The notes under the pieces were generated by a model that was given only the letters and a program-made list of their open reading frames with translations, was not told the origin of the DNA and searched no databases. Source: Pseudomonadota bacterium (GTDB lineage: Bacteria > SZUA-182 > DTGQ01). Taken from it: DNA of 46,474 bases. Below are positions 4,249 through 22,795 of the stretch, one piece after another (position 1 is the stretch's first letter; every line of letters starts with the position of its first letter). The translations under genes and the position numbers were made by a program. Location of the stretch: positions 1 through 46,474 of the forward strand of contig DAOURK010000017.1 of NCBI GenBank assembly GCA_030625085.1, written 5' to 3'.

Positions 4249-5457
4249 TTATTCATATCTTAAAGCATCGATGGGATTTTGCCGGGCAGCACGAAAAGCC
4301 GGGTAAAACCCGAAAAAAATCCCTACTGCTGCTGAAAAAGAAAAAGCAACGAGAACATAAAGGGGCCGAACCAAGGTCGAAAGACTGGAAAAAACAGTAA
4401 TCAGATGACAGCTCATAAAGCCTGAAACAATTCCGACCCCTCCGCCGATGAGACTGAGGATGATGGATTCGAAGAGGAATTGTCGTAAAATATCACTGTT
4501 TTTAGCGCCCAGGGCTTTACGAATCCCGATTTCCCTTGTTCTTTCGGTTACCGTGACCAGCATAATATTCATAATACCAATTCCCCCAACCAGGAGAGAA
4601 ATACTGGCGATGCCCCCAAGGAGCATAGTTAATACCAGGGAAATTGAATTAAGGGTGCGCATTACTTCAGCCTGACTCTGGATAGTAAAATCCGGGGGCA
4701 TGTCAGGAGGTATTCGATGTTGACGTCTCATTACCTTGGTTATTTTTTCCTTGACCATTGAGGAGTTGACTCCCTCCTTAATTTGAAGATCAATTCCTCC
4801 CAAGTGCTTGAGACCAAAAAGTTGGTTCATGGCCGTAGTATAAGGGATGATGATTTGGTTATCCGGGTTATACCATCCCTGATCTCCTCTTATTTCCAAT
4901 TGCCCGATGATTTTGAAGTTAAGGCCATTGACCTTGACCATTTTTTCAAGGGGATTTTTCCCCTGAAACAGGTCATTTGCTGTCTGAGAGCCGATAACAG
5001 CTACTCGTGCGTTTTGCCTGGTTTCAATTTCAGTAAATTTTCTTCCGCTTTGTAAGGTAAAATTGCGGATGGGGAAATAAGTTATGGCCGCGCCAGTGAC
5101 CGGCGTAAGGTTATTTTGATTGAGAAATTTTATCTGGGCACTGGCGCGGACCACAGGGGATAATTGTAAAATTCCAGGTACTTCGTGCAAAATTGCCTCG
5201 GCATTTTCCAGGGTCAGATTTTCATATGACTCACTTCGAACGCCTTGGCTCCCCTTTTGTCCTGGTCTGAGAACCATTAAATTGCTTCCCAGGGAAGCAA
5301 CTTTTTGGGTTATTTGTTTTTTGGCCCCTTCCCCCAGAGCTAACATGGCAATTACCGCGCCGACTCCAATAATGATCCCTAAAGTAGCCAAAAAGGAGCG
5401 CATTTTGTTAGCCCACAGACTTTTGATGGAAACCTTAAGCAGGGTCCAGAAAAGCAT
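4249..5457 (-). CDS. MacB-type ABC transporter permease
   Basis: The 402-aa protein has the MacB/FtsX layout: an N-terminal membrane helix in a sequence typical of the family (SLWANKMRSFLATLGIIIGV, residues 13-32), a periplasmic MacB core domain to about residue 270, and three C-terminal membrane helices (ISLVLTMLLGGIASISLLVG..., ILSLIGGGVGIVSGFM, LYVLVAFSFSAAVGIFFGF) ending in PAFRAARQNPIDALRYE. MacB in E. coli fuses the ATPase to the permease; here they are separate genes two bases apart, the YknY/YknZ style. MacB proteins are mechanotransmitters that push substrate from the periplasm through the adaptor and TolC. Together with the neighbours it forms a tripartite pump; the substrate (macrolide, peptide, lipid or siderophore) cannot be told from sequence. 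Confidence 0.92.
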   Translation of the reverse strand: MLFWTLLKVSIKSLWANKMRSFLATLGIIIGVGAVIAMLALGEGAKKQITQKVASLGSNLMVLRPGQKGSQGVRSESYENLTLENAEAILHEVPGILQLSPVVRASAQIKFLNQNNLTPVTGAAITYFPIRNFTLQSGRKFTEIETRQNARVAVIGSQTANDLFQGKNPLEKMVKVNGLNFKIIGQLEIRGDQGWYNPDNQIIIPYTTAMNQLFGLKHLGGIDLQIKEGVNSSMVKEKITKVMRRQHRIPPDMPPDFTIQSQAEVMRTLNSISLVLTMLLGGIASISLLVGGIGIMNIMLVTVTERTREIGIRKALGAKNSDILRQFLFESIILSLIGGGVGIVSGFMSCHLITVFSSLSTLVRPLYVLVAFSFSAAVGIFFGFYPAFRAARQNPIDALRYE

Positions 5458-5459
5458 TT

Positions 5460-6122
5460 TTAAATCTCCTCAATGATCCGGCCGTCACGGATTTTAATTT
5501 GCCGCTGGCATTTGCCGGCAATTTCCGCGTCGTGGGTGACAATAATTACTGTTCGACCATCCTGGTTTAATTTTTGAAAGATTTTCAGAATTTCTTCATT
5601 CGATTTGGTATCAAGATTTCCCGTGGGTTCATCAGCAAGAATAATGCTTGGATTAGTCACCAGAGCCCTGGCAATGGTCACCCGTTGCTGCTGACCGCCC
5701 GAAAGTTGACTGGGTTCATGGTAGAGGCGCGAACCCAGATTAACCTTTTCCAGTGCGGCGGCAGCCTCGCCTTTAGCTGCCGGATGACCGGCATATAGGA
5801 GAGGAAGCTCTACATTTTCCAGGGCTGACATGCGAGGCAGAAGATTAAAGCTTTGGAACACAAAGCCAATTTTATTATTCCGGATTTTGGCCAGCGCATC
5901 TTTATTCATCTTAGAAATTTCTTTTCCTTCAAGAAAATATTGTCCTGAGTCCGGATGATCCAAACATCCTAAAATATGCATGAGGGTGGATTTCCCGCTT
6001 CCGGAAGCCCCGACAATAGCTACCATCTCCGATTTCCTGATCGAAAGAGATACTTGATTGAGGGCAATCACATACTCTTCTCCCATTTTGTATCTTTTAG
6101 AGATATTTTTTACTGTGAGCAT
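5460..6122 (-). CDS. MacB/LolD-type ABC transporter ATP-binding protein
   Basis: The 220-aa protein has all elements of an active ABC ATPase: Walker A GASGSGKST (about residues 37-45), Q-loop VFQSFNLLPRMSALENVELP, signature LSGGQQQR, Walker B IILADEPTGNLD, and the switch histidine in VTHD. The FNLLP..T/S..ENVELP pattern marks the MacB/LolD/FtsE group. It is encoded directly upstream of its permease (2-bp gap) and 27 bp downstream of the adaptor gene, so the three are surely co-transcribed. It drives the tripartite efflux pump from the cytoplasmic face. Confidence 0.95.
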   Translation of the reverse strand: MLTVKNISKRYKMGEEYVIALNQVSLSIRKSEMVAIVGASGSGKSTLMHILGCLDHPDSGQYFLEGKEISKMNKDALAKIRNNKIGFVFQSFNLLPRMSALENVELPLLYAGHPAAKGEAAAALEKVNLGSRLYHEPSQLSGGQQQRVTIARALVTNPSIILADEPTGNLDTKSNEEILKIFQKLNQDGRTVIIVTHDAEIAGKCQRQIKIRDGRIIEEI

Positions 6123-6149
6123 AGATTTCGATCTTCGAGGGCAGTTTTT

Positions 6150-7457
6150 TTATTTGTTTGCAATTTTTCTTACATTCGACCATTTACTTTGAACAACTCC
6201 CGGATCAAGAAGGACTGTTTCTCCCTCTTTAACTCCTTCAACTACTTCAGTTACTCCTTCGTTTTCAAGGCCCAAAACAATTGAGCGAGAGATAATTGTT
6301 TTATCCGGCAATACTATTTTAGCTTTTGGGCCTTCCGGCGAAAATTCAATGGCTTCATTCGGAATCAGAAGAATGTTAGATTTTTCCTTTGAAATGATTT
6401 TTATGTTGGCGCTCATCTCAGGTTTTAAAAGTGATTTATTTTTTTTCAGAATCTCAATTTTGACATCAAAGGTTACGACATTGCTTATATTAATTCCCCT
6501 GGCGCCGATCCGGACAACCTGCCCCTGAAACAGATCACCGGGATAAGAGTCAACTGTAATCTCAGCTTTTTGTCCTAATTGAATTTTTCCTATATCACTT
6601 TCATCTACCGATGCAATAATAAAAATCCGGGAAAGATCTGATAGGGTCAACATAGTGGTCCCTCCACTGATATTGTTGATGCCGGATGAAATTATTTGAC
6701 CTATTTGCACATTTTTAACTGTCAACGTTCCATCTATAGGAGCAAGAATGCAAGTATCCAGCAGACGCTGTTCAGCGATTTCCCGGTCTATTGTAGCTGC
6801 TCGGACATTGCTTTTTTCCAATCTAACAGCCTGCCGTTTAAGTTCTAGTTCCATTTCCTGGGTTTTCAGTTCCTCGTGTTTAACCAGGGCCTTTTCATAA
6901 GAAGATTTAGCCTTGATGGCTTCGGTTTTTTTTGTATCTAATTCTTCCTGGCTGGACAATTTTTTTTCATAGAGTTGCTTTTCTCGTTCTGCTTTATTTT
7001 TTGCATCTTCCCAATCGGCCTTGGTAGAAGAGATTTCTGCTTGAATATTCATCCGGGCGGTTTTGAGTTTATTTTCATCAATGATCAATCCCTGTTTGGC
7101 GCTGTTTAAATGGGCTTTTGTGGCTTCCAGAGTGGCCAGGGCCTTTTCAACATTTCGTTGTTCATCAGTGGGATCGAGTTTGACCAATAATTCCGATGCT
7201 CGAACTGTATCACTAATATCAAAAGGAAGGTTAATAACCTTTCCGCTGGCTTTTGATTTGATTTCTATATCCTGATTGGAGACAACTTTACCAGTGCAGG
7301 CCACCTGAGTTTGAATAGTTCCTTTTTTGACTTGGGCAGTGGTATACTTTTTGGCTTCATTTTTGTTTGAGCCGGAAAATAATTTGTATCCTGTTATGAC
7401 TATTCCTAATAATAGAAATAGACAAATTGCTGTACATAGGGCTTTCCAATGTTTCAT
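6150..7457 (-). CDS. MacA/HlyD-type membrane fusion protein (efflux adaptor)
   Basis: The 435-aa adaptor has an N-terminal membrane anchor (residues 7-25), a first lipoyl half (VACTGKVVSNQDIEIKSKASG), a long alpha-helical hairpin (about residues 95-235, rich in K/E/A heptads), the second lipoyl half (LDTCILAPIDGTLTVKNVQIGQ), a beta-barrel domain (IIASVDESDIGKIQLGQKAEI...) and a membrane-proximal domain. It bridges the inner-membrane MacB-type complex and TolC. It is the first gene of the operon; GGAGAGGAG ten bases before the ATG is a good ribosome site. The 223-bp leader region holds a half copy of the MITE family and a degenerate CACGAAG-type sequence but no clear promoter. Confidence 0.9.
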   Translation of the reverse strand: MKHWKALCTAICLFLLLGIVITGYKLFSGSNKNEAKKYTTAQVKKGTIQTQVACTGKVVSNQDIEIKSKASGKVINLPFDISDTVRASELLVKLDPTDEQRNVEKALATLEATKAHLNSAKQGLIIDENKLKTARMNIQAEISSTKADWEDAKNKAEREKQLYEKKLSSQEELDTKKTEAIKAKSSYEKALVKHEELKTQEMELELKRQAVRLEKSNVRAATIDREIAEQRLLDTCILAPIDGTLTVKNVQIGQIISSGINNISGGTTMLTLSDLSRIFIIASVDESDIGKIQLGQKAEITVDSYPGDLFQGQVVRIGARGINISNVVTFDVKIEILKKNKSLLKPEMSANIKIISKEKSNILLIPNEAIEFSPEGPKAKIVLPDKTIISRSIVLGLENEGVTEVVEGVKEGETVLLDPGVVQSKWSNVRKIANK

Positions 7458-7480
7458 GAAAAAATACTCCTCTCCATAAA

Positions 7481-7517
7481 AATTAGTGTGTGAAATTTAA
7501 TGGCTAAAAATCTATAG
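7481..7517. repeat. Half copy of the CTATAG MITE
   Basis: ATTAGTGTGTGAAATTTAAT followed by AAAAATCTATAG matches the right end of the element at 1295-1441. The central hairpin and other end are missing. It lies upstream of the efflux operon. Confidence 0.6.
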
Positions 7518-7680
7518 GTGTTATTTTTACCATGAAGGTGACTGAAGTCACGAATATCACAAAATAATGAAAATCATGAAGTAAAAAAGAAAAAAGTCGC
7601 TGAAAGTCAAAGATGCAATATTCTTTTCGGACAAAAGGAAAAATTTTCGCCAGTGGAAGGAGATTTTTTTATTACTATTT

Positions 7681-8625
7681 TTAATGATATTTTTCTTTGG
7701 CTTTTAGCCGAATGTCCGGGGGGAAAATGATGTTTAATTTATAAGAAGTAGATATATTGATAAAAATTTCCGGTTGAGGGAAAAAGATGGGGGGGGGCTC
7801 GGAAGACTTAATAATCTGAGAAATAATCTCAGCTACTTTTCTTCCCAGTAATTCTTGATTATATTCTAAAGCAACTAAAGCGCCCATTTGAGCGCCTGCC
7901 TTCCCACCGCCAATGAAGGGTATTTTGCGGTTAAGACAGCTTGCCGATATTACAGACAAGGAGGCCTCAATGTTTTTATCGTGGACAAGCCCTAAAATTG
8001 CATCTGCATTACCCATTAAAGAATTTAATTTTTTCTTCAGGTCACTTCCGTTTTCAGCAACAGGGAGCGCCTCTATGTGCAGAGTGGGGTAATCCTTAGC
8101 AGCCTCTTGTAAGGATTCAACTTGTTCTCTGGATTTAGGTAGGCTTAAGGTATAAAGTAAGCCGATGGTTTTGATTTCCGGTAAAATAGTACGATACAGT
8201 TTTAAGTTTTTCCTCCAATCGAAACCCGAAAAAATTCCGGAGTAATTGGCCGATGGTTTTTCCCGAATCCTGGCATATCCAATAATAGTGCGCTCAGGGA
8301 ATTTTTTTAAAGCTGATTCCACCTTATCCGCCCCAAAAATATACATAAGATCTTCATCTTTGATTTCATCAATAGAGGTATACTCAATGCAAGGGAAATT
8401 AATTCCTTTAAATAATAACCCATCTCGTAATCCTTTGATGTGTGTTTTATGCCTTGAGTAACCATTTACAATAGCGATTATGTTTTTGGGGTTTGGTTCC
8501 GATCCTTTTGGAATCTCAATAGGCCTATCCCTAAAGTACAGAATGGCAAAAATGATAATTACCAATAAGCTTAAATAGGTAATGCTTCGAATTAAAATAA
8601 TTCGTAAAACTTTACTGATATCCAT
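7681..8625 (-). CDS. Membrane-anchored ABC_sub_bind-type (TrpX/PF04392-like) binding protein
   Basis: The 314-aa product (from the ATG at 8623-8625, which has AAAAGGGG eight bases upstream; an earlier in-frame ATG at 8644-8646 has no such site) has one N-terminal membrane helix with no cleavage motif and a two-lobed periplasmic binding fold. The C-terminal INISTSYKLNIIFPPDIRLKA and the middle ADAILGLVHDKN...PFIGGG fit the ABC substrate-binding family represented by TrpX-like proteins. There is no matching permease or ATPase. It closes the antiporter/signalling cluster, 54 bp behind the 997-aa subunit gene. In some bacteria such orphan binding proteins serve as sensory partners of kinases, so it could feed the histidine kinase encoded upstream; that is inference only. 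Confidence 0.7.
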   Translation of the reverse strand: MDISKVLRIILIRSITYLSLLVIIIFAILYFRDRPIEIPKGSEPNPKNIIAIVNGYSRHKTHIKGLRDGLLFKGINFPCIEYTSIDEIKDEDLMYIFGADKVESALKKFPERTIIGYARIREKPSANYSGIFSGFDWRKNLKLYRTILPEIKTIGLLYTLSLPKSREQVESLQEAAKDYPTLHIEALPVAENGSDLKKKLNSLMGNADAILGLVHDKNIEASLSVISASCLNRKIPFIGGGKAGAQMGALVALEYNQELLGRKVAEIISQIIKSSEPPPIFFPQPEIFINISTSYKLNIIFPPDIRLKAKEKYH

Positions 8626-8678
8626 TTTTTCCCCTTTTAACAACATCGCTGTGTATTATTTATTCCATATTGATAATT

Positions 8679-11672
8679 TTATCGTTTTAGGAAAAAGGTC
8701 AAAATTGAAAAAAATACAATCATTATGGTTATTGTTACAATCATGGCATAAAATGTTTGGATATATAAAAAGCCTACTAAAATGGCAATAGTGATGGTAA
8801 GAGTTGCTGCGATCCAACTAATGTAGCTGCTGATGTCTCCTGTATGAATTTCACTGATTTTTTTACATGTCCTCAGGAACCAGGAATTGCTGAAATCTGC
8901 TTTTTCCAGTTTAAGTTTGGATAAATCCTCAGAGCCGATAATGCCGAAAATAATTCGGTCGACCATCTTATCGTACATCTCCTCTATGTGATAAAATTTC
9001 CTCCATATTCCGGACTTAAGATCACCAGCTTTGGTTAACACTCCCCAGAAAAAGCGGCTAAATATTACCTTATCAAAGGCTAAGTCAAGGTGGGTATCAG
9101 CTTTGGTGACTTTATCGAAAATGCTGTATTCTTTTATCCCAATTGTCGCTTTATCAACAGACCCGGATATTTTTCCCTCGGCCTGGGAGATTTTTCCGAA
9201 AATACCTTCTGAATTAATAACCCTGCTGACAATTTTTGTGTATTTCTGATCAGCTTTAGAGATTTTATCAAACATTCCTTTCTGATTGATGGCCCGATCT
9301 ACGACTGAGGCATATTTTTCATCGGCCTGAGTAACAGGTTTAAAAATTCCATGTTTTTTAGGTAATGGACCTCCTGTCAATTCATCTCCGCCAATAAAAA
9401 GCGGGAAAGGCCTTTCATGGGCAGGCGCTAATGGTGGTGAGGGAATAATCAATTCCAATTTAATTCCGGCAATCCATAAATAAACCATTAATAGGGAAAC
9501 TATTTTTTCAGCCGGTTTTACTATTATTTGATAGGCCAGCCTGCACAAAGAGACGAATGCTTCAAAGACTTTGCGGTAATATTTTTCCAGACTCCATCTT
9601 GGGGAAAGCCTTTTTTTGAAAAGCCCCAGCCCCAAACCAAGCAGTAAAATAATCCCTCCAACAAAGATGGCCGTACTTCCGCCTGAAAGATTGTGGATTA
9701 CTTCTGTGCTGGTTAAGACACTTTTTTGAACCGGATCATATAATAAGGGCAAGAGGGAGTGTTTTGCCGTGGCATGAATATTATAAATCAAATGATAGCC
9801 ATGAGAGTTCGGATTAAAACCAAAATAAGGGAGCATAGGACCGATGAAGGTTTCCAGGAGCCAATTTGGAAATAATCCTAAAACTAAAACACCTGCGCCA
9901 AAAAGAAACAGGGAAACCTTCATAAATATCGGCGAAGATGATATTTTGGCTGAGTCCCTTTTTTTAGGCCCGAGAAAGGTCAGCCCAAATAATTTCATAT
10001 TATAGGCGAATGTACAGCCGGCAGTGATAATAAAGATAATTTCAGCTATACGAAGCCAGAAATCCGGCCTGTGAATACCGGATAAATGTACTGAATGCTG
10101 ATAGGCTTCCAATATGGCATGGTGCAGCATGGTCTTGCTGGCAAAGCCGTTAAAACAGGGGAATCCGGAAATGGCCAGAGCACATATGAGAAAGGTCACG
10201 GCAGCGACTGGAAGCTCATGCCATAATCCGCCTAATTTTCGGATATCCAGTTCTTTGGTTTTAAAATATACAGCCCCGATACTCAAGAATAAGCCCGCTT
10301 TAAACAAGGCATGATTAATGATATGATACAGCGCTCCGGCCAGCCCCATGGCTCCTTCACCACCCATGTAGGCCGCACACCCAATGCCCATAATAATATA
10401 GCCCATTTGGCTGACACTGGAATAGGCTAGTAATTTAAGCGCATGGTTGGAGAAAAGGGCATTAACCGCCCCAAGGAACATGGTTATGATACCCACCCAG
10501 ATTAATAGATATCCCAAATGTGAAGTAGTTATCCAGGCAGCAGGATTTCCCACATGACCAAAGGATGGAGCAAATATCATATTAACAGTGCGAAAAATTC
10601 CATAAGCACCCACCTCGATCATGATACCTGATGACAGGGCCGCAGTAAGGCAGGGCGCTGAACCATAGGAGGAGGGCATCCAGATATGTTCTAAAAATAC
10701 GCCGGCTTTACCGCCGAAGCCAAGCAAAAAGAGGGCGGCTACGAAATATTTCAGGGCCGGGTGAATTTTTTCAAAGGCATAGGCAGCGCTTCGTATCTCT
10801 AATGAACCGGTAAAATGGTAAAAAAGAAAAATGCCGAATAACAGCAAAAGTCCTGTGAATACCCCAAAGTATAAATATACCTTGGCCGACCAGAGGGCCT
10901 GGGCATCTTCGCGGTGGATGACCATAAGGTAAAGAAAGAGCAAAATGCATTCATAGAATACATACAAAGTGAAAAGATCACCCGCTAAAAAGGCGCCTAA
11001 AGTGGCGCTCAGGCAGCACAAATTGGCCACATTGTACCGGAGGCGCTTTTCTTCCACAGCTAAATATTCGTGGGAAAAAATGGCCGTCAATAGCCATATT
11101 AACCCGGTGGCTATTACCAATATCAAGGCTGCCGGATCAACCTTAAAGGTTAAATTCAACTGGAAGGAAGGCAAAAAGGGAATAGAATAATAGATGCCTC
11201 GTCTGATGAGACCTTCGACCGCTCGACCATGGATTACTAAAGGATACATTAATAAAGAAACAACTAAGGTCAAAGCAGATGTAAAGATGACCATAAGCCC
11301 CTGTAAGTAATTGTTTCGCGACCAAAAAAGGGTAATAGCCCCCAATAAGGGTATTAAGATAATCCACCAGGGTAAAGGTGAATAAATCGCTGTTTCCGGG
11401 GTAATCTCAAGGTATTCTGCCGTCTCCTCATGAGTAGTATCCTTTTCATGACCTTGATGCTCCTCTTCAGGGTGTAGCGATGCGTGGCGGCTGTCGGTTT
11501 TAGAAACAGGTTTGCTATGTTGGGATAATGATGCGTAAGCCGGAGTTACTATCTTAAAAGATAGATTCCCCTGGCCAAGGGGAAAAAGAAAAATAAATAG
11601 ATTAAGATATACAAAAATTATAATTATTTTTTTAAGCATTTTTTTCATTATTGATTGTTCATTTCTCAACAT
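8679..11672 (-). CDS. Extended NuoL/MrpA-D-like proton-translocating subunit with C-terminal repeats
   Basis: This 997-aa membrane protein has a hydrophobic leader (14-33), a His-rich segment (about 51-85), then a Proton_antipo_M core of some 14 helices. Glu241 (FYECILLF), Lys322 (GGKAG), His329 and the TM12 lysine (GFASK) of the antiporter channel are kept, but the TM8 lysine is glutamate (Glu353 in MIEVGAYGIF; paralogues in this cluster have MIKAGAYG). After the core (ends near 700) follow a lateral helix (KYYRKVFEAF...), a soluble region with four to five repeats of about 24 residues (about 777-890, pattern F.KI.KAD.KY...VDR.I) and two final helices (about 950-995). Usual relatives are 480-620 aa. 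The start overlaps the stop of the preceding gene (TAATG), implying coupled translation. The role as an ion-pumping subunit is well supported by family; the extension is unexplained. Confidence 0.85.
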   Translation of the reverse strand: MLRNEQSIMKKMLKKIIIIFVYLNLFIFLFPLGQGNLSFKIVTPAYASLSQHSKPVSKTDSRHASLHPEEEHQGHEKDTTHEETAEYLEITPETAIYSPLPWWIILIPLLGAITLFWSRNNYLQGLMVIFTSALTLVVSLLMYPLVIHGRAVEGLIRRGIYYSIPFLPSFQLNLTFKVDPAALILVIATGLIWLLTAIFSHEYLAVEEKRLRYNVANLCCLSATLGAFLAGDLFTLYVFYECILLFLYLMVIHREDAQALWSAKVYLYFGVFTGLLLLFGIFLFYHFTGSLEIRSAAYAFEKIHPALKYFVAALFLLGFGGKAGVFLEHIWMPSSYGSAPCLTAALSSGIMIEVGAYGIFRTVNMIFAPSFGHVGNPAAWITTSHLGYLLIWVGIITMFLGAVNALFSNHALKLLAYSSVSQMGYIIMGIGCAAYMGGEGAMGLAGALYHIINHALFKAGLFLSIGAVYFKTKELDIRKLGGLWHELPVAAVTFLICALAISGFPCFNGFASKTMLHHAILEAYQHSVHLSGIHRPDFWLRIAEIIFIITAGCTFAYNMKLFGLTFLGPKKRDSAKISSSPIFMKVSLFLFGAGVLVLGLFPNWLLETFIGPMLPYFGFNPNSHGYHLIYNIHATAKHSLLPLLYDPVQKSVLTSTEVIHNLSGGSTAIFVGGIILLLGLGLGLFKKRLSPRWSLEKYYRKVFEAFVSLCRLAYQIIVKPAEKIVSLLMVYLWIAGIKLELIIPSPPLAPAHERPFPLFIGGDELTGGPLPKKHGIFKPVTQADEKYASVVDRAINQKGMFDKISKADQKYTKIVSRVINSEGIFGKISQAEGKISGSVDKATIGIKEYSIFDKVTKADTHLDLAFDKVIFSRFFWGVLTKAGDLKSGIWRKFYHIEEMYDKMVDRIIFGIIGSEDLSKLKLEKADFSNSWFLRTCKKISEIHTGDISSYISWIAATLTITIAILVGFLYIQTFYAMIVTITIMIVFFSILTFFLKR

Positions 11673-13210
11673 TATCGAAAATAAAACATACTAATTTTTT
11701 TGGCCAGACTTAATGGAAATCCTGGGAAAAGACCAAAAATCAGTGTCCCCGAGGCTAATAACAAAATCGGGATTAGCATAGCCGGTTTCAATGTTTTCCA
11801 TTCTTTCAGCGTATAAGAGTCATTGTCCTCATTTTTCACAGCTTGTTTTCCCATTTCATAAACGGGTTCTTTCTCCGGTGCAAACCAGGCATTATAAACA
11901 ATAGGACCATAGTAGATCAGGTTCATGAAACTGCTGAGGATGAGGGTGCCAACAGCCACGATACCTACAGCCAAACTATATGAACCTACCTTGACTGCGT
12001 CCAGCGCTCCAATGGCTAAAAACCATTTACTGATAAAGCCATTGAAGGGAGGCAAACCAATCATTGATAATGCGGCCATAGTAAAGCAGGCAGTTACTAT
12101 GGGCATTTTTTTGCCGATTCCTTTTAACTGTGCTAAATGTCTGCTGCCGGTCTGATGAATAAATCCGCCTGCGCATAAAAACAGACCTGCTTTGATGATG
12201 GCGTGGTTAAAAATATGTAAAATCCCGCCGGTTAAGCCAAGGGGTGAAAGCAAGGTAAGGCCCATAATAATATATCCCATTTGAGAGACGCTGGAATACC
12301 CCAACAATTTTTTTAGGTCAGTTTGATTAATGGCGGCGGCAGAGCCAATAAAAATCGAAAACAAAGCCATGCCTAAAAGAATGGCTACGAGGACACTCCC
12401 TTTCAAGACATCTAAGCCAATGATGTTGTAAATAGTTCGAATAATCCCATAGGCCCCGGCCTTGATCATAACACCTGAAGAAAGGGCTACAGCACAGCAG
12501 GGGGTCTCAGGATAAGCTGCCTGCATCCAGTAGTGGAGAGGGAAAATACCAGCTTTAACGCCAAAACCAACGATATACCCCCAAAAGATTAAGGGCAGCC
12601 ATTTATTTCCCTTTAAGCCTAAGCCAACAATGCCCAGATTAATCGTGCCGGTTATGGAAAAAGTCATTAATATTGAAAATAACAGAATCAATCCCCCTGA
12701 AATTCCCATAAAGATATAAACAACTCCTCCTCGCATGGCTTCGGGAGTTTGCTCATGAATCACAAGAACAAAGGAGGCTACACTTAAAAGTTCAAACAGA
12801 ATATATAAACTGAATAGATCGCCGGTAAATACAACTCCGAGCATACCAACTAAAGTAAGAAGCGAGAAAATATCATAGCGTATCTGAGCATGGTTTTTAC
12901 GCATGAACTCAATGGCGTAGAAGCTGGAAAGCATCCAAATTCCTGTAGCAATTAGTCCAACATAAAATCCAAGAGTATCGACCCGTAAAGAGAAGGTTAC
13001 CGGCAAGCCAGTCTCAATTGTATTGACCAGAATTGTGCCTGCCTTGATGGCAGGGTACATGGCGGCGACTACCAGAAAGTCGATTAAGGTTATGATGGCC
13101 GTACAAATGTTTACCTTTTCAGGAAACCTTTTATTCACCCAAAGGACAGGAAGGATTCCCAGGAGCGGGATAGATAAAGCTAATACGGGGGCTATACTCG
13201 TTTGATCCAT
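11672..13210 (-). CDS. MrpD/MbhH/NuoM-N-like proton-translocating subunit (third paralogue)
   Basis: A 512-aa integral membrane protein of the Proton_antipo_M family. The channel residues are all present: Glu140 in the TM5 motif LYILFELLSVASF, Lys219 and His226 in GFGVKAGIFPLHYWM, Lys250 in SGVMIKAGAYG, and Lys395 in the TM12 motif PPFNGFISKWFLA. Length and order fit MrpD or MbhH. It resembles the 503-aa paralogue (16782-18293) much more than a complex-I subunit, suggesting local duplication. It follows the histidine kinase gene after 36 bp and overlaps the 997-aa gene by one base. The ribosome site is weak (TTAGG). Expected function is H+ or Na+ translocation through the membrane as part of a multi-subunit complex. 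Confidence 0.88.
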   Translation of the reverse strand: MDQTSIAPVLALSIPLLGILPVLWVNKRFPEKVNICTAIITLIDFLVVAAMYPAIKAGTILVNTIETGLPVTFSLRVDTLGFYVGLIATGIWMLSSFYAIEFMRKNHAQIRYDIFSLLTLVGMLGVVFTGDLFSLYILFELLSVASFVLVIHEQTPEAMRGGVVYIFMGISGGLILLFSILMTFSITGTINLGIVGLGLKGNKWLPLIFWGYIVGFGVKAGIFPLHYWMQAAYPETPCCAVALSSGVMIKAGAYGIIRTIYNIIGLDVLKGSVLVAILLGMALFSIFIGSAAAINQTDLKKLLGYSSVSQMGYIIMGLTLLSPLGLTGGILHIFNHAIIKAGLFLCAGGFIHQTGSRHLAQLKGIGKKMPIVTACFTMAALSMIGLPPFNGFISKWFLAIGALDAVKVGSYSLAVGIVAVGTLILSSFMNLIYYGPIVYNAWFAPEKEPVYEMGKQAVKNEDNDSYTLKEWKTLKPAMLIPILLLASGTLIFGLFPGFPLSLAKKISMFYFR

Positions 13211-13246
13211 AAAATTTATAAGCCTAAATAATTTTTAAATTCATTT

Positions 13247-14959
13247 TCACCTGATGAGGGTACAAATTCTATTTACCACTTCATCCGGGACAAAGGGATG
13301 AGTAATATAATCATCCGCACCCATCCGAAATCCCTGATCGATTTCAGAACGTTGGGCGGAAGCCGAAAGAATAAGCACTGGGATATCTTTGGTCTTTTTA
13401 TTTGTTTTGACAATTTGACACAAATCAAAGCCATTTAATCGTGGAAGATTAATGTCGAGTATAATCAAATCTATAGAGCCCTGAAATATTTTTTCTAAAG
13501 CCTCAATGCCGTCTTTGGCGGTAAAAATATTCCAATTTTCAGAGCTGATGCAGGTGACAATCAAGTCGCATACCTCCGGATCATCCTCAACCACCAAAAT
13601 TTTTTGTTTTAAGGTTTTTTTCTGTTTATTTTCATCTTTTTCATTGTGCTTAATGTAAGGACCTTCTCGCACTTCCTGTAATTTGTTGGCTGAATGCATG
13701 GCCTCATGGCTTTTTGGAAGGGTAAAGGAAAATATACTTCCTCCCTTTTCAGGGCTTTTTACCCAGATTTGACCATGATGGAGTTCTACAATATTTTTGG
13801 CGATGCATAATCCTAAACCTGTTCCTCCATATTCCCTGGTAGCGGTATTATCCGCTTGATAAAATTTATCGAAGATTTTTTTTAGCTCATTTTCAGCCAG
13901 ACCTATACCCTTATCTATGACATTGATCTGAATAAAATCCTTAAGGGATATACCTTTACCGATTTTTTCCTCCTTTTCCAAAAGAGCTTCCAGAATAATT
14001 TCTCCGCCGGCAGGGGTAAATTTGATGGCATTACTCAATAGATTGATAAGGACCTGGGATATTTTTTGCTTATCTGCATAAACCTTTGGAAGTTCAGATG
14101 GGATTCGGCTTTTAAAATGGATTTTTTTCTTTTGAAATAAAGGCTTCATAGAATTGGTGGTTTCTTCAGCTAATTCAGTGAAATCCAGACTTTTTTGTCG
14201 AATTTCATATTTGTTTGATTCAATACGGGATAAATCCAATAAATCATTGATCAAGCTATTCAAGTGGTCGGCTCTATCATCGGCTGCAATCAAGCCCTTT
14301 TCTTGCCGGGCATTAATTTGTCCAAGGCGTTGGTTTTTTATAAGTGAGACGTATCCCTTAATTACTGTTAACGGCGTACGTAATTCATGGGAAACAGTGG
14401 ATAGGAAATCGGATTTAATGGCATTGAGTTGTTGCAATTTTTCGTTGGCTTCACGAAGTACTCGATCTCGTCTTTCCAATTCTTGATTAACCTTTTCGAT
14501 TTCTATCTGCCGGTCCTGTAATGATGAGGCCATCCGGTTAAATGTTCTGGCCAATTCTCCAATTTCATCCTTACTATCCTGACTGCTTATTTCTATTCTT
14601 TCATTCAGTTGACCCTGGCCGATCAATTCTGCCTTTTGGGATAACGAAATAATTGAATCGGTAAATCTACTGGTAAATTTGCCTAACAAGAGCAACGCTC
14701 CCCCCAAGGTTGCAATAAAACTGAACATAATGAATATAGAGAGAAATATATTATATCTGGTGGCCGTTTTAATTAATTGATTAGCCCCTGAAATAACATA
14801 ATTTTCTTTTGAAACGGCTGAATCCAGATCTTCAATAATCACTTGGAGTCCCTCAGTAACTCGGTGTAGAGAAATATATGAGAATGTTCCAACCATAGCT
14901 GAAAATAAAATAACAATCAAAAAACCTACTATTAGTTTTTGGGTAATGTTAAGGTTCAT
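13247..14959 (-). CDS. Hybrid sensor histidine kinase (HAMP-HisKA-HATPase-REC)
   Basis: The 570-aa kinase has two membrane helices (about 7-29 and 69-93) with only a short periplasmic loop, a HAMP domain (about 93-145), a coiled coil, HisKA with His191 in STVSHELRTPL, and HATPase_c with N box (Asn310 in NLLSNAIKF), D-x-G (VIDKGIG) and GGTGLGL. A C-terminal receiver domain (about 453-570) keeps the acidic pair EDD and the acceptor Asp502 (LIILDINLP), but the conserved lysine before P-F is histidine (His554 in ITHPF). The small external loop suggests sensing within the membrane or through a partner. It lies 12 bp after the REC-GGDEF gene and before the third antiporter subunit, so signalling and ion-transport genes share one transcript. 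Confidence 0.92.
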   Translation of the reverse strand: MNLNITQKLIVGFLIVILFSAMVGTFSYISLHRVTEGLQVIIEDLDSAVSKENYVISGANQLIKTATRYNIFLSIFIMFSFIATLGGALLLLGKFTSRFTDSIISLSQKAELIGQGQLNERIEISSQDSKDEIGELARTFNRMASSLQDRQIEIEKVNQELERRDRVLREANEKLQQLNAIKSDFLSTVSHELRTPLTVIKGYVSLIKNQRLGQINARQEKGLIAADDRADHLNSLINDLLDLSRIESNKYEIRQKSLDFTELAEETTNSMKPLFQKKKIHFKSRIPSELPKVYADKQKISQVLINLLSNAIKFTPAGGEIILEALLEKEEKIGKGISLKDFIQINVIDKGIGLAENELKKIFDKFYQADNTATREYGGTGLGLCIAKNIVELHHGQIWVKSPEKGGSIFSFTLPKSHEAMHSANKLQEVREGPYIKHNEKDENKQKKTLKQKILVVEDDPEVCDLIVTCISSENWNIFTAKDGIEALEKIFQGSIDLIILDINLPRLNGFDLCQIVKTNKKTKDIPVLILSASAQRSEIDQGFRMGADDYITHPFVPDEVVNRICTLIR

Positions 14960-14971
14960 ATACAGTTAAGA

Positions 14972-16781: not shown

Positions 16782-18293
16782 TTATGGGAAAAATAAGTGA
16801 CTTATTTGTTTGGCAATCCCGAGAGGCAAACTGGGGAAGATCCCAAAAAAGAGGACAGCCACAGTTAAAGTTAATATAGGCGCCAGCATGATCCAATTTG
16901 GGTCGTCATTATCAATTTCTTTTGAGCCTGGATTAGCTGTAGCAGCCAGGCTTTCTTCCTTACTCTCATGCATCCAAGCGCTAATGACCACCGGTCCGTA
17001 ATAGACCAGGTTGAGCAAACTGCTAAACAGCAAGGTTAATAAGGCAACAAGACCCATTCCCGCCCAATAGTTTCCCAACTTCATTGTTTCCAAGGTCCCT
17101 AAAGCTAAAAACCATTTACTGATAAATCCGATAAAAGGAGGCAATCCGATCATGGAAAAAGCGCAAACACTAAAGGCCATAGTAACTAAAGGCATCCTTC
17201 GGCCGATTCCTTTCAGGTCCTCCAATTCTCGTAACCCTGTCTTATAAATAAAGGCGCCTGCACACATAAACAAGGTGCCTTTCATGAGAGCGTGGGCAAA
17301 CATATGGAGCAGTCCGCCTACAATGCCAAGAGGCGCAAGTAAGCAGAAGCCCATAATAATATAGCCGATTTGTGAGATACTGGAATAGGCTAACATCTTT
17401 TTAATTTCTTTTTGCGTGATAGCACAGGCAGATCCCAGAAAGATCGTAATTAAAGAGATGATCAGTAAAGAGAATATCAGCCACATATGATTATTAGATA
17501 TATCTTGATAGCCAATAATGTTATATATAGTTTTAAAAATTCCGTAAGCTCCGGCTTTAATCATAACACCGGATAAAAGAGCGCTGGCTCCTGAAGGGGC
17601 CACCGGGTGTGCGGAAGGCAACCAGATATGTAAGGGGAATATACCTGCCTTGACTCCAAAGCCAATAATGAAACCCCAGAAAATCCACGGCAGCCACTTG
17701 CTCCCCTGTAAACCAATACCGATGAGTGTAAGGTCTCCCGTGCCGGTAATGGCGTAGGTCATGATAATGGAAAATAGCAGTACCAATCCGCCGGTGATGC
17801 CTAAAAATAGGTATTTAAATCCCGCCTTCATGGAATCGGGAGTTTCCTCATGAAAGACTAAAATTGAGGAGGCTACACTCACAAGTTCAAAAAAGATATA
17901 GAGGGTAAACAGATTTCCTGTAAAAAGTACCCCTAACATTCCGCTTAGGGATAACAAAGAAAAGATATTAAATCGGGCATGAGCATGAGAGTGTTTCATA
18001 TATTCAATGCTGTAAACAGAGGAAAGTGTCCAGAGAATGATGGAAATCATACCAACCAGAAAGCTAAGCAAATCTGCCCTGAAGACAAAATTAAAACCCA
18101 GTCCTGTGTCCAGAGAAAGGTTGAGAATTTTACCGGAAATAATCGGAGGATACATATAAAGCATAATAGCCAGCGTGACTCCGCTGACAATGGCCGTAAA
18201 GTGATAATACCGATGTTTTTGGACAAAGGGGCGGAAGATGGTGGCAATAAGGGGGAACATAACCACTATCAAAGGCAGATAGCTTCTAATCAT
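16782..18293 (-). CDS. MrpD/MbhH-like proton-translocating subunit (second paralogue)
   Basis: A 503-aa polytopic Proton_antipo_M protein. Key residues are Glu136 (LYIFFELVSVASS), Lys215 and His222 (GFGVKAGIFPLHIWLP), Lys246 (SGVMIKAGAYG) and the TM12 lysine in PPFIGFISKWFLA. SSISQIGYIIMG and AHALMKGTLFMCAG are further family blocks. It is close to the 512-aa paralogue in length, motifs and C-terminal organisation (a hydrophilic loop rich in E, D and N before the last helix). AAGGAG ten bases upstream of the ATG is a good ribosome site. It follows the first MrpD-like gene after 63 bp. It should form one half-channel of the ion-translocating membrane arm. Confidence 0.88.
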   Translation of the reverse strand: MIRSYLPLIVVMFPLIATIFRPFVQKHRYYHFTAIVSGVTLAIMLYMYPPIISGKILNLSLDTGLGFNFVFRADLLSFLVGMISIILWTLSSVYSIEYMKHSHAHARFNIFSLLSLSGMLGVLFTGNLFTLYIFFELVSVASSILVFHEETPDSMKAGFKYLFLGITGGLVLLFSIIMTYAITGTGDLTLIGIGLQGSKWLPWIFWGFIIGFGVKAGIFPLHIWLPSAHPVAPSGASALLSGVMIKAGAYGIFKTIYNIIGYQDISNNHMWLIFSLLIISLITIFLGSACAITQKEIKKMLAYSSISQIGYIIMGFCLLAPLGIVGGLLHMFAHALMKGTLFMCAGAFIYKTGLRELEDLKGIGRRMPLVTMAFSVCAFSMIGLPPFIGFISKWFLALGTLETMKLGNYWAGMGLVALLTLLFSSLLNLVYYGPVVISAWMHESKEESLAATANPGSKEIDNDDPNWIMLAPILTLTVAVLFFGIFPSLPLGIAKQISHLFFP

Positions 18294-18356: not shown

Positions 18357-19922
18357 TTATCTAAATAATAATCTTGCTGAAGGCAATGCGGCGCCGTGAT
18401 ACGGGTATTTAACCAATATTCCTAAAATAAATACTAATGAGGCCAGAATCAAAACAGGTACTAACATTGTTTTAGGGGCCTCATCTATTTTATCTACTTC
18501 GATCTTAGGGTCTCCAAAATAGGAAATAGCGATCACCCGAAAATAGTAAACCGCATTCAGCAAACTACTGAGCAGTAAAATAATTACCAAATAGGGCATT
18601 CCCGCTTGAAAGGAAGCCGTAGCTAAAACCCATTTGCTCATAAAACCGGCCAATGGGGGGACCCCAACCATAGAACAGGCCCCTATAGTGAAGCAGGCCA
18701 TGGTGACGGGCATTCGATATCCCAATTTCCCCATGTCGGTAATGTCCTTAATTCCTGTTTTGTAAATGATAATCCCGGAACATAAAAATAACAAGCTTTT
18801 TACTATAGCATGATTAATTATGTGCAAAATCGAACCGGCTAATCCATTATAGGTAACTAAAGCAATACCAAACAAGATGTAACCCATTTGAGCAATAGTT
18901 GAAAAGGCTAGCATTCTTTTTATTTGGGTTTGAACTATAGCAAAAAGAGAGCCGCTCAAAATGGTAATAGCGCTGATAATCAAAAAAAGGGGAGAAAGGA
19001 TTTTTCCATAATATCCTTTGTGAATGCCGAATATGGAGAAGAGAAAGCGAATCAATAAAAAAACACCGGTAGCCTTGACGATTAATCCGGATAAAAGGGC
19101 GCTTATAGAAGCAGGAGCAACCGGATGGGCATCAGCTAACCAGGCATGGCCGGGGAAAAAAGCAGCCTTCACACTGAATCCCATAATAAATAATCCTAAA
19201 GAGGCAAAAATTAAATAGCGATAGGGATAGTATGGAGAACCGGGAGTAGAATCAATGATTTTGGCAATCTGTTGAGAGGCATACTGCATGTTTAATGTTC
19301 CCGTGGCATTAAAGAGCAAGCCGATGGCAAAAACAATAAAAACCGAACTGAGGGCCCCGATGAGCAGATATTTAAATGTCGCCTCCAATGACTCTGCCTT
19401 TCCATTAATAGAAACCAGAGCGTAAGAGCTGATGGAAGCAACCTCAAAGAAAACGTAAGCATTAAAACAATCACCGGTAATAGCTATTCCGGACATACCG
19501 GCCAACATAAGGAGCAATAAGGTATAGTAGTAAGTGTGTTTTTCTTCCGGGACATCATGCTGAATGTATTGCAGAGAATAAACTACAGCTAGAAAACCGA
19601 TGGCATTTATCAACAGCAACAAAATCGCGCCGAGCAAATCAGTGCGTAAGGCAATGCCGATTGGCTGGCCGGAGTGAAGAAGTTTTTGACCGCCCCAGGC
19701 ATAGCCAACCAAATATTCAATATAATGGGTGGGAGACGATAAAACCTTCAAAAAAACAATCACGGCAAAAATGCCGCTCATTAAGGTGGTCAGCACAACC
19801 AGAGGATCTCGATACCTTTTATCGATTTTGTCGATGAGTGGAATCATCAAGGCGACGATCAGCAAAATGAGGGGAATAAAAACTTGAAGATGCGATGCGC
19901 CGATCCCAAATACTAGATCCAT
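18357..19922 (-). CDS. mrpD: MrpD/MbhH-like proton-translocating subunit (first paralogue)
   Basis: A 521-aa Proton_antipo_M protein that occupies the canonical MrpD/MbhH place directly after mrpC. Glu160 (AYVFFEVASISSYALV), Lys242 and His249 (GFSVKAAFFPGHAWL), Lys273 (SGLIVKATGVFLL) and the TM12 lysine in PPLAGFMSKWVLA are present. It differs from the other two MrpD-like proteins in the TM8 motif (IVKATGVFLLIRF) and in a longer loop after TM6 (QIAKIIDSTPGSPYYPYR), which agrees with it being the ancestral MrpD and the others being later additions. AAGGA seven bases before the ATG fits the start. The 129 bp between it and mrpC hold no recognisable feature. Confidence 0.9.
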   Translation of the reverse strand: MDLVFGIGASHLQVFIPLILLIVALMIPLIDKIDKRYRDPLVVLTTLMSGIFAVIVFLKVLSSPTHYIEYLVGYAWGGQKLLHSGQPIGIALRTDLLGAILLLLINAIGFLAVVYSLQYIQHDVPEEKHTYYYTLLLLMLAGMSGIAITGDCFNAYVFFEVASISSYALVSINGKAESLEATFKYLLIGALSSVFIVFAIGLLFNATGTLNMQYASQQIAKIIDSTPGSPYYPYRYLIFASLGLFIMGFSVKAAFFPGHAWLADAHPVAPASISALLSGLIVKATGVFLLIRFLFSIFGIHKGYYGKILSPLFLIISAITILSGSLFAIVQTQIKRMLAFSTIAQMGYILFGIALVTYNGLAGSILHIINHAIVKSLLFLCSGIIIYKTGIKDITDMGKLGYRMPVTMACFTIGACSMVGVPPLAGFMSKWVLATASFQAGMPYLVIILLLSSLLNAVYYFRVIAISYFGDPKIEVDKIDEAPKTMLVPVLILASLVFILGILVKYPYHGAALPSARLLFR

Positions 19923-20051: not shown

Positions 20052-20456
20052 TTATCCTTTCAGGCGCATAATTTTTCTTGTATCCAATGTTCCGTAATTT
20101 TCATATATTTTTATGGCTAAGGCCAAAGAGATGGCAGTCACACTAACGCTCACTACAATAGCTGTAAGAATAAGGGCTGAAGGGATAGGGTTTACTAAAG
20201 GCACATGTCCCGCAGCGGCATGAGCAACCTCTGCAGCGTTGGAAATTTCTGATGGTCCTGCCCACTGACATGTAGCTGGTCCTAGGCGTACATCGGCCGA
20301 AGCAATAAAAAAGAGATATACAGAGGTCTCTAGTATATTTATACCGATTATTTTTTTAATTAAATTTGGTTTTAAGATTAGTGCATACAACCCTATACAA
20401 AATAAGATGACGGTAACAATATAATCGATTCTATACAGAATCATCTTTATCCACAT
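20052..20456 (-). CDS. mrpC: MrpC/MbhG (NuoK-like) antiporter subunit
   Basis: I take the ATG at 20454-20456 (MWIKMILYRID), because AAGGAG lies eight bases upstream; the open frame extends further but would add a charged non-membrane leader. The resulting 134-aa protein has three membrane helices with NuoK/MrpC motifs: GLYALILKPNLIKKIIGINILETSVYLF and NPIPSALILTAIVVSVSVTAISLALA. Between helices 2 and 3 is a stretch of about 30 residues with GPATCQWAGPSEISN that is longer than usual. The gene overlaps the end of mrpB by 26 bp. MrpC is an essential small subunit beside MrpA and MrpD in the antiporter complex. Confidence 0.88.
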   Translation of the reverse strand: MWIKMILYRIDYIVTVILFCIGLYALILKPNLIKKIIGINILETSVYLFFIASADVRLGPATCQWAGPSEISNAAEVAHAAAGHVPLVNPIPSALILTAIVVSVSVTAISLALAIKIYENYGTLDTRKIMRLKG

Positions 20457-20970
20457 CCAACCATCTCCTTTGGTAAGGTAATTTTTTTTTATTTTCCAAG
20501 TAATACGGGGACCTTTCTTCTTCCAAAAAGACATAAAAAAGTTCGGTACAAATTACGGCCACTGTCAATCCTACACCAAGATTGATCCAAAACAGGGCTC
20601 CTCCGCTTAACAACTCCCCGAACATTCCCATAGGGGCAATTGCGGCGGCTTTATTGGTCAGGAAATGATACCCAAGAAAAATGCCGACTAATCCTATAGA
20701 GATATATAAATACACTCCAATACTGGCCAAACATTTTAAGGTGAAACTGGGTACTGCATCTCGACCATCTTGTCTATTAAAAGCCATGGCAAACAGAATG
20801 AATGAGGCCCCGATGATCACTCCGCCCTGAAATCCTCCCCCTGGGGTCAAATGCCCATGAACAATAAGAAAAACTCCGAACATTATAATAAAAGGACACA
20901 TCATCCGGGTAACCAATTGAACTATGATACTTGTTTTATATTTTTCCTTATTTTTTTTTGGCGTGATCAT
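20431..20970 (-). CDS. mrpB: MrpB/MbhF (MnhB-domain) antiporter subunit
   Basis: The 179-aa protein has an MnhB domain with four helices and the signature HGHLTPGGGFQGGVIIGASFIL. A hydrophilic C-terminal tail of about 30 residues (EEERSPYYLENKKK...) extends past the domain. It starts four bases after the stop of the MbhE-like gene and overlaps mrpC, consistent with a tight operon. MrpB/MbhF contributes to the sodium-translocating part of Mrp and Mbh complexes. Confidence 0.9.
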   Translation of the reverse strand: MITPKKNKEKYKTSIIVQLVTRMMCPFIIMFGVFLIVHGHLTPGGGFQGGVIIGASFILFAMAFNRQDGRDAVPSFTLKCLASIGVYLYISIGLVGIFLGYHFLTNKAAAIAPMGMFGELLSGGALFWINLGVGLTVAVICTELFYVFLEEERSPYYLENKKKLPYQRRWLDVDKDDSV

Positions 20971-20974
20971 GTCT

Positions 20975-21325
20975 TTAATTTTTCTTTGTCCCGATAATTG
21001 AAAGTACTCCGATCATGGCTGTAAATAAAACAGTTGCCTCAATAAGGGTATCATAGGCACGATAATCAAAAATGATGGCCGTAATAATATCCAGCGCTCC
21101 TGTATCTCCAGGACTGTGGCGGTTATAATGGAGGGCAACGGAATCTGCATATTGAACCACTTCTTCTTTGGTCATCTCCCATACTTCTTTTTCAGTATTC
21201 TCAGAATGATCAAAACCCGCATAACCAGGTAAATGCGGATCACCTATGGGGGCAAATCGTAAAATCACCACTATCATACTGAAGGCGAAAACAGTAAATA
21301 ATATGGCCGGAACAAATTTTTTCAT
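20975..21325 (-). CDS. MbhE-like subunit (corresponds to MrpA C-terminal part)
   Basis: Starting at ATG 21323-21325 the product is 116 aa (MKKFVPAILFTVFAF...); the frame runs 20 codons further upstream into the preceding gene but that adds only a charged leader. It has an N-terminal helix, a periplasmic loop with FAPIGDPHLPGYAG, and the family block TGALDIITAIIFDYRAYDTL followed by a second helix. The acidic DYRAYDT corresponds to the VDFRGFDT segment of MrpA and MbhE. In classical Mrp this part is fused to MrpA; here, as in archaeal Mbh, it is a separate gene. Confidence 0.85.
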   Translation of the reverse strand: MKKFVPAILFTVFAFSMIVVILRFAPIGDPHLPGYAGFDHSENTEKEVWEMTKEEVVQYADSVALHYNRHSPGDTGALDIITAIIFDYRAYDTLIEATVLFTAMIGVLSIIGTKKN

Positions 21326-21344
21326 GAAAATTTTATCCTTTTCA

Positions 21345-21593
21345 CTAATCTTCTCTTCTTTGGGTTTTACATAAAGTGGCCACAAATAAAATACTTGATA
21401 ACCCCGCTCCTACAGCCGCTTCAGTCATAGAAACATCCACTGCTCGAAGAATGCTGTAGGTTAAAGCCATGGTGAAACTATAGGCACTATAAATAATCAC
21501 TGCCTCCAATAGGTCCTTGCTCATAACAGCGGCTAAAGCAGTGGCTACTAAAAAAGCCAGAATCACCACATGAGCAAATATTAAAAGATCCAT
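21345..21593 (-). CDS. MbhD-like DUF4040 subunit (corresponds to part of MrpA)
   Basis: An 82-aa protein of three helices with the DUF4040/MbhD motif: KDLLEAVIIYSAYSFTMAL and APDVALTEAAVGAG-like AVDVSMTEAAVGAGLSSILF. It equals the segment between the NuoL-like part and MbhE part of MrpA. Here it is free-standing as in Mbh gene clusters. AAGGAG nine bases before the ATG supports the start. It lies 10 bp behind mrpG. Confidence 0.88.
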   Translation of the reverse strand: MDLLIFAHVVILAFLVATALAAVMSKDLLEAVIIYSAYSFTMALTYSILRAVDVSMTEAAVGAGLSSILFVATLCKTQRRED

Positions 21594-21603
21594 ACACTTC
21601 TCC

Positions 21604-21960
21604 TTATTTTTTTTCTTTCTGGTCCTTTAATAGATGAAAGGTAGTTTCCTCCACCCACGGAGTTTTCGTTTTATAACAGAATCGTAAGATGGAGTGCACT
21701 GCAATGGGATTGGCAAATAACATAAAAATTATAATTACCAAGATTTTTAAACTCTCAACCGGGTTGATGGTTAACCAGTAAAACCATACTCCAAGCATAG
21801 AAACCAGAAAACCGGGGCTGTCGCCTTTACTGGCAGTATGAGCTCGGTTATAGGGATCAGGCATCCGGATTACACCAACCGTGGCGGCTATGAAAAAAAA
21901 TATTCCCCCAGCTATGAAAATTCCCGCTAAAACTCGCAAGGTTTTAATTACATAAATCAT
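21604..21960 (-). CDS. mrpG: MrpG/MbhC antiporter subunit
   Basis: The 118-aa protein has three helices and the PhaG/MnhG signature, here GVIRMPDPYNRAHTASKGDS, followed by ILVIIIFMLFANPIAVHSI. It overlaps mrpF by one base (TAATG), the arrangement usual for these genes. MrpG is a small membrane subunit of the antiporter module. Confidence 0.93.
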   Translation of the reverse strand: MIYVIKTLRVLAGIFIAGGIFFFIAATVGVIRMPDPYNRAHTASKGDSPGFLVSMLGVWFYWLTINPVESLKILVIIIFMLFANPIAVHSILRFCYKTKTPWVEETTFHLLKDQKEKK

Positions 21961-22235
21961 TATTCACCCAGATTTCTTTGTTCTAAATATTTGATGAAGG
22001 CCAGAGTGGTTATATAGATCAGCATGGCGTAAAGCATGGCAATGTCTAAATAAGATCCCTTTTGAAAAATAGCTCCTAAAAACACAAAGACCGTTACTAC
22101 TTTCGTTCCAACCACATTGATACCAATTATCCGATCTGCTGTGGTGGGGCCTAAGACGGCCCGATAGAGGCAGAAAAAAATAGTGCAAGATAGTATAAGA
22201 ACGGCTAATTTTAATACCAAATCCAGTTCGATCAT
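21960..22235 (-). CDS. mrpF: MrpF/MbhB antiporter subunit
   Basis: The start is the ATG at 22233-22235 that overlaps the mrpE stop as ATGA; a longer in-frame reading exists but runs inside mrpE. The 91-aa product has three helices with the MnhF motif, YRAVLGPTTADRIIGINVVG, then AMLYAMLIYITTLAFIKYL. The conserved aspartate in TADRI has been linked to Na+ handling in Mrp systems. Translation is probably coupled to mrpE and mrpG on both sides. Confidence 0.93.
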   Translation of the reverse strand: MIELDLVLKLAVLILSCTIFFCLYRAVLGPTTADRIIGINVVGTKVVTVFVFLGAIFQKGSYLDIAMLYAMLIYITTLAFIKYLEQRNLGE

Positions 22236-22795
22236 TTTTTCTTTTTCCCGTAGACATGAGCAATTTTTTCTACAAATCCCCCTGTTTCCAAAATTTCTTT
22301 TACTGATTCCTGGCTTATACAGTGAACCCAAAATATGCTTCCCTTTTTTATTTTTTGAGCATCAATGGTAATAGTTCCTGGAGTAAGGGTAATAGAATTG
22401 GCATTAAGGGCAATTTCATCGTCTGCGCCAAGAGATGTTTTTACCTGTACAATACCAGGAGAAATCAATAATTTTTTTCGCATTACTCTTCTGGCTACAT
22501 CAATGCCGGCAAAGCACATATCGAAACCAAGGCGGATAAAATAAACTCCCAGACGAAACAAAGTCTTAACATTTATGTATTTTTTAATTTCATCTGAATT
22601 AAATATATTGAGGGGATAAATGTAAACGATAATAAACGCAAAAATGAGGCCTAAAACGGCATGTTCGATAAGATTAATAAAACCCAATTTCGAATAAACA
22701 TCAGCAGGAAAAGAAATGATCATCCAAAAGATGAAAAGCAGAAATACCGAAATTAGAAATTCACTCCAGTTTTTTTTTGAATTTCTCAAAGCCAT
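22232..22795 (-). CDS. mrpE: MrpE/MbhA antiporter subunit (first gene of cluster)
   Basis: The 187-aa protein has N-terminal helices (about 12-30 and 38-60), a third near 80-100, and the soluble MnhE domain with SPGIVQVKTSL...NANSITLTPGTITID, the hallmark SITLTPGT motif. It heads the order E-F-G-MbhD-MbhE-B-C-D, identical to mbhABCDEFGH of archaeal membrane-bound hydrogenases. The only ribosome-like sequence (AAGGA) is almost next to the ATG, so initiation may be weak. The 511-bp spacer upstream is shared with the divergent pgsA side; no strong minus-strand promoter stands out. Confidence 0.93.
   Translation of the reverse strand: MALRNSKKNWSEFLISVFLLFIFWMIISFPADVYSKLGFINLIEHAVLGLIFAFIIVYIYPLNIFNSDEIKKYINVKTLFRLGVYFIRLGFDMCFAGIDVARRVMRKKLLISPGIVQVKTSLGADDEIALNANSITLTPGTITIDAQKIKKGSIFWVHCISQESVKEILETGGFVEKIAHVYGKKKK

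Follow-up and report, generated by a model that had tools for sequence, protein, structure and literature searches.

A 24-residue tandem repeat in a probable lateral-helix-type arm of an MrpD-type antiporter-like subunit

The window, i.e. the whole 46,474-nucleotide stretch of DNA analysed, carries an Mrp-type gene cluster on its reverse strand (Table 1) in which components E, F, G, B, C and D occur together, with E, F and G assigned from gene order and relatives. Four antiporter-like genes (at 18357, 16782, 11672 and 8679) encode D1, D2, D3 and subunit L, the last of them and the largest protein of the cluster, and no redox genes were seen in the cluster. A histidine kinase with a receiver domain and a receiver-GGDEF response regulator are encoded within the Mrp operon (13247-15952), and 16007-16657 encodes a His-rich small membrane protein with no Pfam or NCBIfam match. 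The gene order is repeated in the related clusters L107 and L108, and in L109 minus the kinase/regulator pair; this pair is also present in L113 but not in L096, and the His-rich protein is kept beside the antiporter genes in L107, L108, L109, L096, L100 and L113.

Table 1. Features of the antiporter cluster and of subunit L (residue numbers refer to L; AF2, AlphaFold2)
Feature	Coordinates	Strand	Basis
L, MrpD-type antiporter-like subunit, 997 aa, C-terminal arm	8679..11672	-	PF00361 core residues 230-525
TM16-like + extra TM17-like helices, residues ~945-997	8682..8840	-	paralogue comparison; AF2
Repeat copy 5, residues 888-911, GIWRKFYHIEEMYDKMVDRIIFGI	8940..9011	-	HMM; AF2 helix 888-912
Repeat copy 4, residues 850-873, SIFDKVTKADTHLDLAFDKVIFSR	9054..9125	-	HMM; AF2 helix 852-880; orthologous across the five relatives
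Repeat copy 3, residues 823-846, GIFGKISQAEGKISGSVDKATIGI	9135..9206	-	self-match, HMM; AF2 helix 824-843
Repeat copy 2, residues 799-822, GMFDKISKADQKYTKIVSRVINSE	9207..9278	-	self-match, HMM; AF2 helix 800-821
Repeat copy 1, residues 775-798, GIFKPVTQADEKYASVVDRAINQK	9279..9350	-	self-match, HMM; AF2 helix 777-797
Proximal arm, residues 691-774, possible copy 0 included	9351..9602	-	alignment A2; AF2 long helix 695-731
TM15-like helix ahead of arm, residues ~668-690	9603..9671	-	hydrophobic segment; helix in AF2 model
Codon of Glu353, central TM8 position (Lys254 of MrpA)	10614..10616	-	family alignment
D3, antiporter-like, MrpD type	11672..13210	-	one of four antiporter-like genes
D2, antiporter-like, MrpD type	16782..18293	-	one of four antiporter-like genes
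D1, antiporter-like, MrpD/MbhH type	18357..19922	-	one of four antiporter-like genes
Mrp small subunits, whole block	20052..22795	-	Pfam for C, B, MbhE-like; rest by context
Mrp C	20052-20534	-	Pfam
Mrp B	20431-20970	-	Pfam
MbhE-like	20975-21385	-	Pfam
DUF4040-like	21345-21593	-	position, sequence character, order in relatives
G, F and E-like	21604-22795	-	position, sequence character, order in relatives

The core of L matches PF00361 (E 4.7e-48) and, of the key charges checked (TM5 Glu, TM7 Lys, the central-triad His and Lys, and TM12 Lys), all are conserved, as E241, K322, H450, K458 and K513. There is one departure, the replacement of the TM8 Lys by Glu353; this position is Glu in 5/5 orthologues carrying the 24-residue repeat and Lys in the 21 other family members compared. 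The TM8 Glu and the repeat arm could both simply mark one clade, and a Lys-to-Glu change at a central proton-channel position throughout the clade is a hint that its members may handle ions differently. The switch histidine in TMH8 of MrpA (His248 in B. pseudofirmus; PMC9568556) corresponds to Ser347 in L and to Ser or Leu in 26/26 family members compared. No MbhD/E-type domain is fused in the same chain, which ends after the TM17-like helix, the DUF4040-like and MbhE-like proteins being encoded by separate ORFs. Given the absence of the switch histidine and the separately encoded MbhD/E part, the core is of the MrpD type rather than MrpA. The best PDB fold matches of the whole model in Foldseek were MrpA (7qru_A, 6z16_A) and NdhF/NuoL. 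The N-terminus of L is signal-like and His-rich.

The 24-residue tandem repeat proposed for L from a sequence-only reading is real. The best ungapped self-match aligns residues 775-817 with 799-841 at an offset of 24 (BLOSUM62 score 100), a score reached by 0/1000 shuffles (shuffle maximum 51), and an HMM of the repeat, trained on the 25 copies of five orthologues with L's own among them, recovers five copies in L at 29.7-34.7 bits each. Gaps of 3 and 14 residues separate copies 3/4 and 4/5, respectively. The reading had placed the array at 8949-9344, which translates to residues 777-908 (repeats at 777-890 with traces to 908); the array is present there but begins slightly earlier, at residue 775. 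A degenerate copy 0 may precede it at residues ~755-774, which align with copy 1 of L107 (alignment A2), and the two extra hydrophobic helices expected after the array are found at residues ~945-996. At the DNA level no tandem repeat was detected in the array by TRF, and the duplications are therefore considered old; a recent DNA duplication as the source of the repeats was rejected on the same result, and a mobile origin on the lack of any match in plasmids. Comparison of the unit with Pfam and the PDB returned no known repeat or coiled-coil family, and one marginal PDB match (E 0.012) was to a chain named sc-apCC-6-DPH-NR.

A search of homologues, as the sequence-only reading had recommended, found the repeat in all five orthologues, as an arm of five or six units in each of the five genomes that share family and order (G000-G004). 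Elsewhere among the 60 genomes searched there was only a weak profile match in L072 (G008; E 4.5e-4) and one marginal hit to an unrelated ORF. Total arm length in the orthologues is 259, 259 and 260 residues, with 237 in L108. The arms of L107 and L108, from the same genus and with the same gene order, correspond over every unit apart from an additional one in L107, giving six units and five in two clusters that both have four pumps. Unit four is orthologous in all five arms and unit five in the four that are complete at that end, and the terminal units are conserved with the motifs IFSRxFWG and GSEDLSK. The last two units appear to be fixed and the inner ones to turn over.

The segment bearing the repeats connects the TM15-like to the TM16-like helix, and IHTGDISSYISW occupies in L the site of 'RRxQTG' in short-arm paralogues, whose 'RRxQTG..hYa' we take to be the NuoL C-terminus. 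Lying between these two helices, the repeats occupy the position of the lateral helix HL. Each L copy is also amphipathic when considered alone (moment 0.38-0.66, shuffle p 0.001-0.05). The suggestion of an amphipathic helical arm placed like the NuoL lateral helix is supported by this position, by the moments of the single copies and by the repeat in all five orthologues, the helices themselves being predicted at low confidence. The HL of MrpA is located between TMH15 and TMH16 (PMC7419157, PMC9568556), and that of MbsH' is found in the same position, where HL and TMH16 keep the antiporter subunits together (PMC7684303). According to PMC3274701, truncation of NuoL results in a fragile complex, the E. 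coli HL withstands most insertions and substitutions, though often with some loss of stability, and inserting 6-7 residues between NuoL and NuoM comes at the expense of pumping.

The HL of NuoL/ND5 and MrpA shares with the L arm its position, a C-terminal anchor helix and, at the level of the single copies, amphipathicity. However, it is one long helix, whereas the L arm has ~250 residues with several tandem units; L additionally has an extra TM17-like helix and is without the MrpA/ND5 TM8 histidine in its core. Similarity of the repeat to the HL-type arms tested was undetectable: profile comparison, of limited power with such short profiles, found none to paralogue arms or solved structures, and homology to the NuoL-type paralogue arms received no support by hhalign (short profiles, weak power). 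The idea of an origin different from that of the NuoL helix thus agrees at the sequence level with everything it was tested against, namely the NuoL-like arms of two paralogues, the PDB and Pfam; the repeat may nonetheless derive from HL itself and have diverged since. A literature search that covered few subscription papers found no published report of tandem repeats in HL.

Among known systems, MbsH' of the archaeal MBS (6u8y_X) is, like L, an MrpD-derived duplicate bearing HL beside a plain MrpD-type subunit, and its core matches profile A1 (E 1e-76). Unlike the L cluster, MBS has two antiporter-like subunits, a redox arm and a single-helix HL (PMC7684303). In Complex_I_3 of Ca. Manganitrophaceae the HL of MrpD2 is lengthened by approximately one 24-26-residue unit, a 26-aa insert that accompanies extra pump subunits (PMC9040806), and an HL insert of like kind is described for NuoL of the Nitrospira 2M complex I, as relayed in PMC9040806. 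These are single inserts in a redox complex I, whereas the five units of L belong to an Mrp-type cluster in which no redox gene was seen. The interpretation offered in the sequence-only reading is partly supported; we take the L arm to be HL, a known element, in repeat-built form, and infer a bracing role for it.

The sequence-only reading knew of no Mrp, Nuo or Mbh subunit with such a repeat, which needs correcting, as several Mrp/MrpD2-type relatives carry other tandem repeats in the arm. Those of L064, L036 (an archaeon), L051 (Natronincola peptidivorans, culturable), L097, L098, L072 and L096 have them in the same place, mostly at 24-29 residues per unit: the period is 25 in L036, L064 and L051, 26 in L097, 29 in L098 and L072, and 37 in L096, and the repeats of relatives were reached by 0/500 shuffles. 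No tandem repeat was found in the arms of L104 and L054. In L141, a distinct antiporter relative, the C-terminal arm holds at this place a Lys-rich, NIKVKKPNISVK-like tandem repeat with a period of 12 residues. The repeats of L064 and L036 are alike (E 1e-8), but comparison of the L unit with those of L064, L036 and L051 by hhalign, with short profiles, found no similarity and gave no support for homology. In relatives the arm site holds two or more additional repeat families that show no detectable similarity to the L unit. As the repeat sequences are dissimilar, the repeat arms would count at least three origins, a figure in which such short profiles leave room for remote homology.

The repeats of L are probably best explained as an enlarged HL-type brace of an MrpD2/MbsH'-like subunit. 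By analogy with the known lateral helices, the arm would lie on the cytoplasmic membrane surface and run along the pump row, contacting the other antiporter subunits and keeping D1, D2, D3 and L together, and would have been lengthened as a single unit was duplicated in tandem and in frame. Points against such a brace are the low pLDDT of the arm, arm lengths that are not tied to pump number, a 24-residue unit that suits a continuous surface helix poorly, and the total of ~250 residues, more than one HL rod would be expected to require to span four subunits.

A possible but considerably less probable explanation is that the units, instead of bracing the pump row, offer a multivalent surface on which another protein docks or two copies of the complex dimerise; a docking surface was also the second option of the sequence-only reading. 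In MBS, part of the dimer interface is provided by the HL of MbsH' (PMC7684303), the cluster holds the conserved His-rich membrane protein and, in part of the group, the kinase and response regulator, and copy number varies at unchanged pump number between L107 and L108. However, TM helices fix the arm at either end in the place of HL, and no partner was found to co-occur with it, since the kinase/regulator pair is missing in L109, which keeps the repeat.

An unlikely reading of the arm is that of a largely disordered linker that evolves fast, puts up with tandem duplication and does no more than join TM15 and TM16, although several observations lean that way. In the AlphaFold2 model of the L chain from residue 87, pLDDT is mostly 80-95 in the core and 28-50 in the arm, and falls to 37 for the isolated arm, worse than in the full chain. 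Unit gain or loss has occurred inside one genus, different repeats occupy the site in other lineages, and the E. coli HL withstands most changes (PMC3274701). Against this, all 25 copies from five orthologues have hydrophobic residues at unit positions 2, 3, 6, 9, 13 and 17 and an acidic one at position 10; Phe, Trp or Tyr fills position 3 in 24/25, and position 18 is acidic in 23/25. Seven columns of invariant type in every copy are not expected of a neutral linker, and the amphipathicity of individual units, the conserved terminal motifs and the near-constant arm length of the orthologues argue in the same direction. The sequence-only reading had named disorder without conservation, or absence from all homologues, as refuting it; homologues carry the repeat under constraint, but the structure predicted for the arm has low confidence.

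The arm helices of the model, predicted with low confidence, number one per unit with breaks near the unit borders; in the isolated arm they are similar, with some further broken. A unit of 24 residues corresponds to 6.67 alpha-helical turns, which is awkward for a continuous surface helix, and breaks or a left-handed supercoil would therefore be needed. When units 1-3 are treated as one straight helix, hardly any common face remains (a moment of 0.06 at 100 degrees, with the optimum at 104.5 degrees), which speaks for breaks or supercoiling.

PMC7684303 describes the length of HL as fitting the pump-subunit count. With pump number taken as antiporter-like genes per cluster rather than measured stoichiometry, arm length correlated with pump number over 33 clusters (rho 0.78), weakening when relatives were collapsed (rho 0.46, p 0.13, n=12). 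Arms have 85-260 residues in clusters with four pumps, 35-214 in those with three (the 214-residue arm being that of L064), 122-151 with five and 231 with six. The L arm has 259 residues at four pumps and those of L103 and L104 have 122 at five, while the L proteins of G060 (four pumps) and G133 (three) are 81% identical with arms of 109-110 residues. Arm length thus does not strictly follow pump number, which contradicts the published rule if that is taken literally. L097 (G005:C50:5000-24000) is a complex I cluster at 4672-18561 with NuoJ-like, NuoK-like, two NuoM, NuoN, two MrpD and L-type genes, six of them antiporter-like. L104 (G006), L103 (G007) and L098 (G005:C24) each have two MrpD, L, NuoM and NuoN, i.e. 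five antiporter-like genes; one MrpD of L103 is split over two ORFs, and NuoJ/K-like, NuoF-like and formate-dehydrogenase-like ORFs, identified by eye, lie upstream in L104. A strict molecular ruler, in which one 24-residue unit is allotted per antiporter-like subunit and copy number counts pumps, would fit the estimated ~36-39 Angstrom of 24-26 helix residues, the reported length match, the 26-aa insert accompanying an extra pump (PMC9040806) and the uncollapsed correlation, but is very improbable and was rejected as a one-repeat-per-pump rule, being contradicted by five versus six units in the same four-pump order (L108, L107), by equal arms at four and three pumps (G060/G133) and by five-pump clusters with half the arm (L103/L104), unless unseen subunits complete these complexes.

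As unit number changes between close relatives and other lineages carry repeats of their own at the site, the proposed brace seems to evolve by gaining and losing modules. A more tentative generalisation is that the lateral arm is modular and has repeatedly evolved through tandem duplication of ~25-residue amphipathic units, independently in several lineages, such that gain and loss of units may let the complex change or tolerate different pump numbers and arrangements, with arm length evolvable instead of a fixed ruler. In the literature HL length goes with pump number, and L107/L108 and G060/G133 are close pairs that separate the two. As these pairs uncouple arm length from pump number and the repeat arms form a natural series, the function of the brace is testable by removal of units, and its possible roles in coupling, clamping and dimerisation would thereby become testable.
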